46,036 bases of DNA from NCBI GenBank assembly GCA_018647405.1, contig JABGTD010000044.1, positions 1 through 46,036 on the forward strand. The letters are read 5' to 3'. This stretch comes from Nitrososphaerota archaeon. Its GTDB lineage: Archaea; Thermoproteota; Nitrososphaeria; Nitrososphaerales; Nitrosopumilaceae. A program made the position numbers and the translations under genes. The notes below the pieces were generated by a model that searched no databases, was not told the DNA's origin, and saw only the letters and a program-made list of their open reading frames with translations. This document shows positions 42,383-44,701 of the stretch, in pieces (the stretch's first letter is position 1; each line of letters begins with the position of its first letter).

Positions 42383-43594
42383 ATGAGTATGGCACCCCAA
42401 GAATTAGAAAAAAGCGCTAGCAAATACGCGGCAGCTGCTATACGAGCTGATTCACAAGGCGCTGCTGGAATGGCCATAACTGATTATCAAAATGCATCTG
42501 AAACTTTATTGAAATTAATACGACTTTATCCTACTAGCAGTTTGAATAAAATTTACAAGCAAAGTTATCAAAAATATCAAGAACGTATTCAAGCATTACG
42601 TGATAGTAATGGTGGAAATATTGCCCCTGCGGTAGATCCTAACGCATCTCCCGAGGAACAAAAAAAGGCTTTGGCTAGAGCTCAACCTCACAAAGATGAT
42701 GGTAATGATCTTGAAGATTTAGTTATGAGAGAAAAACCTGATGTAAAATGGTCTGAGGTAATTGGATTAGATGATGCAAAAGGCGCATTACGTGAATCAA
42801 TTGTTTATCCTAGTAAACGACCTGACTTATTTCCATTAGGTTGGCCACGCGGTATGTTATTGTATGGCCCTCCCGGAACTGGAAAAACAATGCTTGCAGC
42901 AGCAACTGCAAATGAACTAGATGGTTATTTCATTAATGTTGATGCTGCATCAATGATGAGTAAATGGTTAGGTGAAGCAGAAAAAAATGTATCAAAATTA
43001 TTCAATATGGCACGAAAGTATAATGAAAAAGAAGGCAAACCTGTAATCTTATTCATTGATGAGGTTGACTCTCTTCTTGGAGATAGAAGTAGCGAGGTCG
43101 GTGGTGAAATTAGAGCAAAAAATCAATTCCTTTCTGAATTAGATGGTGTTAATGGAAAAGGTAAAGAAACCATGATGTATGTAATAGGTGCAACTAACAA
43201 ACCTTGGAGTTTGGATGAACCATTTCTGAGACGATTCCAAAAAAGAATTTACGTATCTCTTCCGGCAATGGATGCACGAAATAAATTATTCGAACAATAT
43301 ACTGCTCCTCTAAAAAAATCAACTCGATTTAATCTGGTTAGTCTTGCAAAACAATTTGATGGGTATAGTGCAAGTGACATCAAAGATGTATGTCAAGGTG
43401 CACAATTGCTAGTTGTAAACGAATTATTCAGATCTGCTAATTACCATGAACCTGTTGACGGTGAACCGCCACAAGATCCTCGTGAGTTGACAATGGCTGA
43501 TTTCAAAGATATCAAAGCAAGAAGAAAGCCAAGTGTTTCTACAGAAAATATTCGTGCATATCATAAATGGAGCGAATCTTTCGGTGCACTCTGA
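42383..43594 (+). CDS. cdvC: CdvC, Vps4-like AAA ATPase of cell division
   Basis: A 403-residue CdvC. Residues about 1-75 form an N-terminal MIT domain (QELEKSASKYAAAAIRAD, then KLIRLYPTSS), a proline/acidic linker follows, and one AAA domain has Walker A GPPGTGKTMLAA, Walker B VILFIDEVDSLLGD, sensor and second region RFQKRIYVSLPAMDAR, and a Vps4-type C-terminal helix ending KWSESFGAL. Vps4-like ATPases disassemble ESCRT-III filaments made of CdvB, whose genes are not here. There is no clear TATA at leaderless distance; a GTGAT element (Shine-Dalgarno core) is four to eight bases before ATG, so a short leader is likely. It is followed at once by the carB remnant. Confidence 0.95.
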   Translation: MSMAPQELEKSASKYAAAAIRADSQGAAGMAITDYQNASETLLKLIRLYPTSSLNKIYKQSYQKYQERIQALRDSNGGNIAPAVDPNASPEEQKKALARAQPHKDDGNDLEDLVMREKPDVKWSEVIGLDDAKGALRESIVYPSKRPDLFPLGWPRGMLLYGPPGTGKTMLAAATANELDGYFINVDAASMMSKWLGEAEKNVSKLFNMARKYNEKEGKPVILFIDEVDSLLGDRSSEVGGEIRAKNQFLSELDGVNGKGKETMMYVIGATNKPWSLDEPFLRRFQKRIYVSLPAMDARNKLFEQYTAPLKKSTRFNLVSLAKQFDGYSASDIKDVCQGAQLLVVNELFRSANYHEPVDGEPPQDPRELTMADFKDIKARRKPSVSTENIRAYHKWSESFGAL

Positions 43595-43927
43595 TCGGTT
43601 TTCACATCGATCAACAAAGAATCTTTTAAATCCTGATTCTAAGAAACTTGTAGAGGGTCACAATAACTACAAAGAAATCCAAACATTGCTGATCTTCTAC
43701 ATGCACGAAAAATTGATTTTATTGTAAACATACCAAGTACCTCTACACTGGAAAAATATGTTGGAATGCTATATGGTGAGTATCAAATTAGAAGAAAATC
43801 CCTCGAACTGGTAATCCCTGTATTGACTACTCCTGAATTATCCGAATCCTTTGTAAAAACACTGGAATGGCTACAAACAAACGAAACTACTAAAAAACCT
43901 CTACAACCTTATGAAAATTTAGATTAA
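43595..43927 (+). pseudogene. carB: Decayed 3' end of carB (carbamoyl-phosphate synthase large subunit, MGS domain)
   Basis: Immediately after the cdvC stop, the same frame encodes VFTSINKESFK (43598-43630), a CarB MGS-domain start; stops then interrupt. The next frame continues NPDSKKLVEGHNNYKEI (from 43629), and from 43676 the first frame resumes as NPNIADLLHARKIDFIV to a proper C-terminus ending KKPLQPYENLD. So the carB C-terminal domain (allosteric MGS fold) is present with two frame breaks and about 30 residues missing in its middle (only about six codons remain where the ATKGT-like loop belongs). None of the synthetase halves is here. It has no usable start codon, so it is a dead fragment; a complete carB should lie elsewhere. 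The end overlaps the convergent phosphoesterase by nine bases. Confidence 0.75.
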
Positions 43928-44668
43928 ATCCTTTAGAATTGATTCATTTCCAATTATTGTTCCATCTAATGTCAAAATTTTTGCCGTTGTAGAATCTTTA
44001 ATTTTTTCAACTATTGGAGAAATTGATTTTTTATAATATTTTTTTTCAGTTGCATAAAAGTATGGATTGAATGATGGAACTATTGTGATGTTAAGATTTC
44101 CTTTTGTATCTGGAAAAATTTTTGATTTATCTGATTTAATCGAAATCCAAATTCTCTCTCCATTGAGTAATGAATTTTTATCAAAATAAACTGGATGAAT
44201 ATGTCCCATGATTATATTATTAACACTTGAATAATTTTTTGATGGCATTGTATGACCATGTGTTAATAATACATCATCTAAAATCATTCCCTTTGAACTA
44301 ATTACTGTAACATCATTTGGAATCAACCTATCGATATGTGAATCATGATTTCCTGGAACCAATATCACTTCCAATGAATTTTTTATCTCTTCAAAAAAAT
44401 ATGGAATATCTTTCCATTCTAAATCTGTTATAGATTGTATGCTTGATTTTACATCTCCTAAAAGAATTAATGTTTCTGGGTTTTCTTTTTTAATAATTTT
44501 TGTAACATTTGAAATAATTTCATTTATTGATGAATTTTTTTTAACTGTATTTTTATTTGATGAAAATTTATCTTCAAATCCAATGTGTAGATCAGATATA
44601 ACTAGATTTTTCCTTTTTTCTTCAAGAATTAATGCTGGTTCGGAATCAATTATTCTTGTTGTTACCAT
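43919..44668 (-). CDS. Metallophosphoesterase (SbcD/Mre11-like archaeal type)
   Basis: A 249-residue calcineurin-like phosphoesterase. Metal motifs in order: VISDLHIGFEDKF (DxH), LLGDVKSS (GD), VPGNHDSHIDRL (GNHD), LTHGHTMPSK and IIMGHIHPVYF (GHxH). It resembles the small archaeal phosphoesterases related to Mre11/SbcD nucleases and YfcE. No second catalytic or DNA-binding module is present. ATG 44668 is preferred over TTG 44671. It is divergent from the SWIM mini-protein B (34-base gap). Substrate unknown. Confidence 0.88.
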   Translation of the reverse strand: MVTTRIIDSEPALILEEKRKNLVISDLHIGFEDKFSSNKNTVKKNSSINEIISNVTKIIKKENPETLILLGDVKSSIQSITDLEWKDIPYFFEEIKNSLEVILVPGNHDSHIDRLIPNDVTVISSKGMILDDVLLTHGHTMPSKNYSSVNNIIMGHIHPVYFDKNSLLNGERIWISIKSDKSKIFPDTKGNLNITIVPSFNPYFYATEKKYYKKSISPIVEKIKDSTTAKILTLDGTIIGNESILKDLI

Positions 44669-44701
44669 CAAGATTATACGTTTGTCTTAGATTAATCCCT
44701 T

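Follow-up and report, generated by a model that had tools for sequence, protein, structure and literature searches.

The carAB genes of the Nitrosopumilaceae encode a glutamine-dependent carbamoyl phosphate synthetase that feeds arginine and pyrimidine synthesis. The same product would be supplied by the carbamate kinase-like carbamoyl phosphate synthetase of Pyrococcus furiosus (PDB 1e19), an enzyme type whose anabolic use has been proposed mainly for thermophiles and is possibly confined to thermophilic archaea (reviewed in PMC6022934). Disrupting the gene for this kinase in T. kodakarensis made little difference, and the role of the enzyme has recently been questioned (PMC13260591). Also described is the replacement of the atp operon beside pyrB in Thaumarchaeota (PMC6863869). 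A literature search retrieved no published report of carAB loss or of kinase replacement in these archaea.

The stretch of DNA analysed here (the window, 46,036 nucleotides) corresponds to contig C30 in a 1.10-Mb draft genome of 76 contigs, with 85.7% completeness and 3.5% contamination. The nearest named relatives of this genome are Candidatus Nitrosopelagicus genomes, and the host is an open-ocean ammonia-oxidising archaeon of that genus. At the contig end (45928-46036) we noted a 15-base tandem repeat encoding AADKA units, the probable cause of the break in the assembly. The window shares with the carAB locus of other Nitrosopumilaceae its gene order, its flanks and the sequence of both retained gene ends, whereas neither subunit retains its catalytic parts; an enzyme of the P. 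furiosus type was not found in the window's assembly either. We interpret the locus, with a probability of roughly 0.87, as the scar of a deletion that removed a 4.1-kb carAB segment between two copies of the sequence CCAAACAT at the ancestral cdvC > carA > carB locus.

The ancestral locus in related genomes

In Nitrosopumilaceae relatives cdvC is followed by carA and carB and then by a convergent metallophosphoesterase gene. Among the 80 named loci of this family that were reached via cdvC, carA stands directly after cdvC in 79, the sole exception being L082 of Ca. Nitrosopelagicus sp. AH-580-D06 (genome G027); wherever the contig is long enough carB, and mostly also the phosphoesterase gene, come next in line with somewhat varying spacing. 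The preliminary description had proposed comparing the cdvC 3' region of related genomes, and had placed carB ancestrally beside cdvC: it does lie behind cdvC in the relatives, but with carA standing between them. Both flanks of the window are collinear with the relatives, which retain 4.1 kb in between.

The carA gene of Nitrosopumilaceae seemingly starts with ATA or ATT downstream of a conserved GAGGGTCACA-like stretch (window 43653-43665; loci L071-L150), and in 50 of 79 loci the interval from the in-frame stop to the conserved region contains none of ATG, GTG and TTG. A conserved non-AUG start of carA in this family is a possibility raised by these alignments. A separate observation concerns carB of genome G017 (locus L071), which is broken by two single-base insertions in A-runs; these may be sequencing errors, or else further loss under way.

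Structure of the scar

The 84 bases at 43595-43678 align unbroken with the cdvC-carA spacer and the carA start of the relatives, and the cdvC end together with the spacer shows 86-93% identity to the closest genomes. Base-by-base reading against the intact locus of G012 (L080) places the junction at the 8-base sequence CCAAACAT, which occurs twice in G012, once within carA and once within carB (7900 and 12022 of L080), and a single time in the window (43679). The 4,122 bp between the two copies in G012 are absent from the window. Thus two copies in the intact locus, one copy in the deleted locus and collinear unique flanks give the pattern of a deletion between short direct repeats. Of the carA gene that lies directly upstream of carB in the intact operon, about 8 codons are left, and no CPSase_sm_chain match was recovered by profile search in the window's assembly (85.7% complete).

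Table 1. Features of the scar and its flanks, in window coordinates
Feature	Position	Strand	Evidence
cdvC (Vps4-like AAA ATPase), intact	42383..43594	+	NCBIfam cell_div_CdvC 492 bits, below equivalog cut-off 650; 99% identical to G017/G006
cdvC-carA intergenic spacer, GAGGG at 43653-43657	43595..43662	+	alignment with relatives
carA 5' remnant: ATA start and about 7 codons (ITTKKSKH), frame lost thereafter and ending at a stop	43663..43686	+	ATA/ATT conserved at the same place in relatives
Deletion junction, single remaining CCAAACAT	43679..43686	+	base-by-base reading against G012
carB 3' remnant (MGS half-domain, pseudogene)	43679..43927	+	matches intact CarB at 93-95% identity; invariant sites changed (D>G, G>V)
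Tract not following sister genomes (imported allele), left edge uncertain	approx. 43605..43968		sliding identity, site patterns, tail tree, AU test
Convergent metallophosphoesterase gene, intact	43919..44671	-	TIGR00024 81.7 bits, below cut-off 115.2; flanks carB in relatives

The carB remnant begins about 85 bp past the cdvC stop, and its end is overlapped by the phosphoesterase gene. It comprises the last ~82 CarB codons, and the identity given in Table 1 extends over 80 residues to the intact CarB of congeners. With the Pfam MGS profile it scores 15.7 bits, below the cut-off of 24.1, and covers the second half of the domain only, so that its assignment to CarB is based on full-length homologues and not on this score; a PDB search with the tail alone gave no match. 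The two ATP-grasp halves and the D3 oligomerisation domain of CarB lie in the deleted part.

The remnant bears several marks of decay. Its D>G and G>V substitutions fall at positions that do not vary in any of the 75 other tails compared, and an E>A substitution affects a nearly invariant one. A one-base length difference near its end abolishes the TAG at which G012 and G027 stop; here the frame continues to a TAA. In the tail tree the remnant forms the longest end branch within its clade. Persistence as a living short protein is unlikely, there being no ATG, GTG or TTG in frame before 43766.

These results alter the preliminary description, which had seen a dead carB fragment behind cdvC, made up of three pieces of the CarB MGS domain in the right order with about 30 residues lost. 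The part at 43679-43927 is indeed CarB, while 43595-43678 consists of the spacer and the first carA codons; INKESFK and PDSKKLVEG both fall within this latter part, and nothing in the CarB C-terminus corresponds to them. What is lost amounts instead to nearly all of carA and ~1,000 carB codons. The fragment only appears to start exactly where cdvC ends, because the carA 5' end is still there, and the C-terminus, described as proper, is present with its stop codon displaced.

The deletion would have started from a locus ordered cdvC > carA > carB with the convergent phosphoesterase gene after it. Loss of the segment between one CCAAACAT copy a few codons into carA and another near carB codon 1000 left one copy, and took away nearly all of carA and all of carB but its last ~82 codons. 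Gene order, size and junction are read from the alignment, and replication slippage or microhomology end-joining is the mechanism that we infer from them. The remnants are out of frame, and their decay has begun. The cell would probably be left without the glutamine-dependent synthetase route to carbamoyl phosphate, and would need another source or the scavenging of pyrimidines and arginine.

Second copies and assembly artefacts

An incomplete carB behind cdvC might also be the relic of a tandem duplicate or of a rearranged second carB whose main copy lies elsewhere, as the preliminary description had proposed. We consider this extremely improbable, given that carAB occupies this same site in nearly all relatives and that congeners never show more than one CarB D3 match. 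Profile searches for CPSase_L_D3 gave no match elsewhere in the window's assembly, and neither carA nor carB, including the intact carB whose search had been advised, was found elsewhere in it (85.7% complete), so a second carAB copy was rejected. The one strong CPSase_L_D2 match, a 499-aa frame on contig C23, looks like a biotin carboxylase, judged by protein size only. The locus is therefore a deletion scar at the ancestral site and not a duplication. It is conceivable that carAB was relocated to the part of the genome missing from the assembly (85.7% complete, 3.5% contamination), which counts against the deletion reading.

Whole-genome amplification chimeras can have junctions at short repeats of the 8-base type. 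The window's junction is such a repeat and its assembly is a draft, features that would fit an assembly or amplification artefact. We nevertheless judge an artefact, which had also been suspected at the outset, to be very unlikely: G027, a separately assembled second genome, shows an almost matching loss whose junction differs, and a chimera formed within the cell creates neither the substitutions at invariant CarB sites nor the non-sister allele of the tail.

Mosaic structure and carB alleles

On both sides of the tail the window resembles the sister genome G017, with about 92% identity on the left up to 43686 and mostly 88-99% per 100 bases beyond 43969. Across the tail identity to G017 is 75%, versus 89% to G012, and both site patterns and sliding identity show the window following G012/G027 over about 43605-43968. 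In the tail tree the window groups with G012, G027, G028, G019 and G009, the six forming a clade (100/98), and the AU test rejected a grouping of its tail with the sister genomes (p-AU 3.6e-9). This tract with another carB allele bears out the recombination that had been suspected at the locus. Homologous recombination would thus have exchanged the locus as well; the mosaic itself is observed, and its order relative to the deletion is inferred.

Two carB types were detected in intact genomes. Type I is 92-95% identical to Nitrosopumilus carB (L104), with cdvC only 72-75% identical. The window's remnant is of type II, like G012, G027 and G028, versus the Nitrosopumilus-like type I of the sister genomes, and in G012 a carA resembling type I is combined with a carB of type II. 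The two types and the mixed pair of G012 indicate that carAB was exchanged repeatedly at this site. In most close Nitrosopelagicus genomes (loci L071-L081) carAB is far nearer to Nitrosopumilus than cdvC is, an indication of inter-genus transfer.

The foreign allele can be recognised clearly only to the right of the junction, and a short microhomology lies exactly at that point. This would accord with one-step homology-facilitated illegitimate recombination, in which pairing in the phosphoesterase gene and a microhomology join at the carA start imported the tail and deleted carAB together. A few G012-like sites are, however, also present left of the junction (43605-43650), suggesting that the foreign tract spans it, and we regard the one-step event as improbable. 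In the reading that we favour, deletion between the CCAAACAT copies, the scar itself is of an ordinary kind, and what is unusual is the recombination at its locus.

One loss or two

The deletion in G027 resembles that in the window in that the same two genes are lost, both gene ends remain and the endpoints agree within tens of bases. It differs in its junction, CTGAT instead of CCAAACAT, and in the presence of a carbamate kinase gene beside pyrB in G027. The tails of the two genomes are separated by 26 synonymous and 5 non-synonymous changes. In simulations of neutral drift after a shared deletion ~20 amino-acid changes were expected, and none of 5000 runs had 5 or fewer. The differences are thus far too synonymous for neutral drift, which implies that most of the divergence arose while both genes worked.

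This argues against a single event, with a scar of the G027 type passed on by descent or transfer and later shortened by the 37 bp separating its two CCAAACAT copies, as does the tail tree, where the window pairs weakly (89/43) with intact G012 and not with G027. Such an event would have several observations on its side: the G027 scar does carry CCAAACAT twice, 37 bp apart, and their collapse yields the window's junction; one base (AAAGAATCTTTT) is common to the window and G027 only; and two unrelated 4.1-kb deletions ending within a few tens of bases of each other would be a notable coincidence. On balance a single event seems unlikely, and there were probably two separate losses, favoured by about 4 to 1, barring later recombinational overwriting of the tails. 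The argument might no longer hold if a tail had since recombined with intact alleles.

Carbamate kinase and carbamoyl phosphate supply

The window's genome retains ornithine carbamoyltransferase (C36), argininosuccinate synthase (C56) and a gene of the DHO dehydrogenase family (C72). This retention of pathways that use carbamoyl phosphate speaks against the loss of carAB. Neither pyrB nor a carbamate kinase was found in its assembly (85.7% complete); contig C53 carries the left neighbours of the pyrB locus and breaks off within them before reaching the site.

In G027 a carbamate kinase gene lies ~70 bp from pyrB, tail to tail (block L169:8496-10483, G027:C1). It matches full-length carbamate kinase profiles, with 301 bits for NF009007 (cut-off 266) and 345 bits for TIGR00746, just below the cut-off of 358. 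Among solved structures its closest match is 1e19 of P. furiosus (275 bits, aligned over 12-327). Between G027 and G194 (genus g36) the kinase has 96% and pyrB 98% protein identity, and the block 94% DNA identity over 2.85 kb; the neighbours of the block in G027 are of Nitrosopelagicus type on both sides. By these comparisons the G027 kinase is an apparent import, acquired as a block with pyrB.

Carbamate kinase was detected in only 7 of 250 family genomes (E 1e-15), among them G191, G193 and G194. No carAB or cdvC was found in the about 430 kb of G193 searched, and G032, another kinase-bearing genome, also has no carB-tail match. The G027 assembly (81% complete) likewise lacks carAB and has the kinase. 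This distribution suggests, from few and incomplete genomes, that carbamate kinase may have replaced the synthetase in G027. For a marine ammonia oxidiser that is abundant and streamlined, loss of carAB in two of its lineages would mean either dependence on nucleotide and arginine scavenging or replacement by carbamate kinase. It is this parallel loss, with the possible replacement, that gives the scar added interest.

A more tentative and rather improbable reading is that repeated carAB loss in some Nitrosopelagicus came about because a carbamate kinase, laterally acquired as a block with pyrB, makes carbamoyl phosphate directly from ammonia and bicarbonate, and that the window's genome has this block too, at the pyrB site missing from its assembly. 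G027 would be a mesophilic test case for an anabolic carbamate kinase. The pyrB/atp region that is laterally exchanged in G027 is the same as in the Thaumarchaeota replacement cited above (PMC6863869); there the atp operon was exchanged, whereas in G027 it is carbamate kinase together with pyrB.
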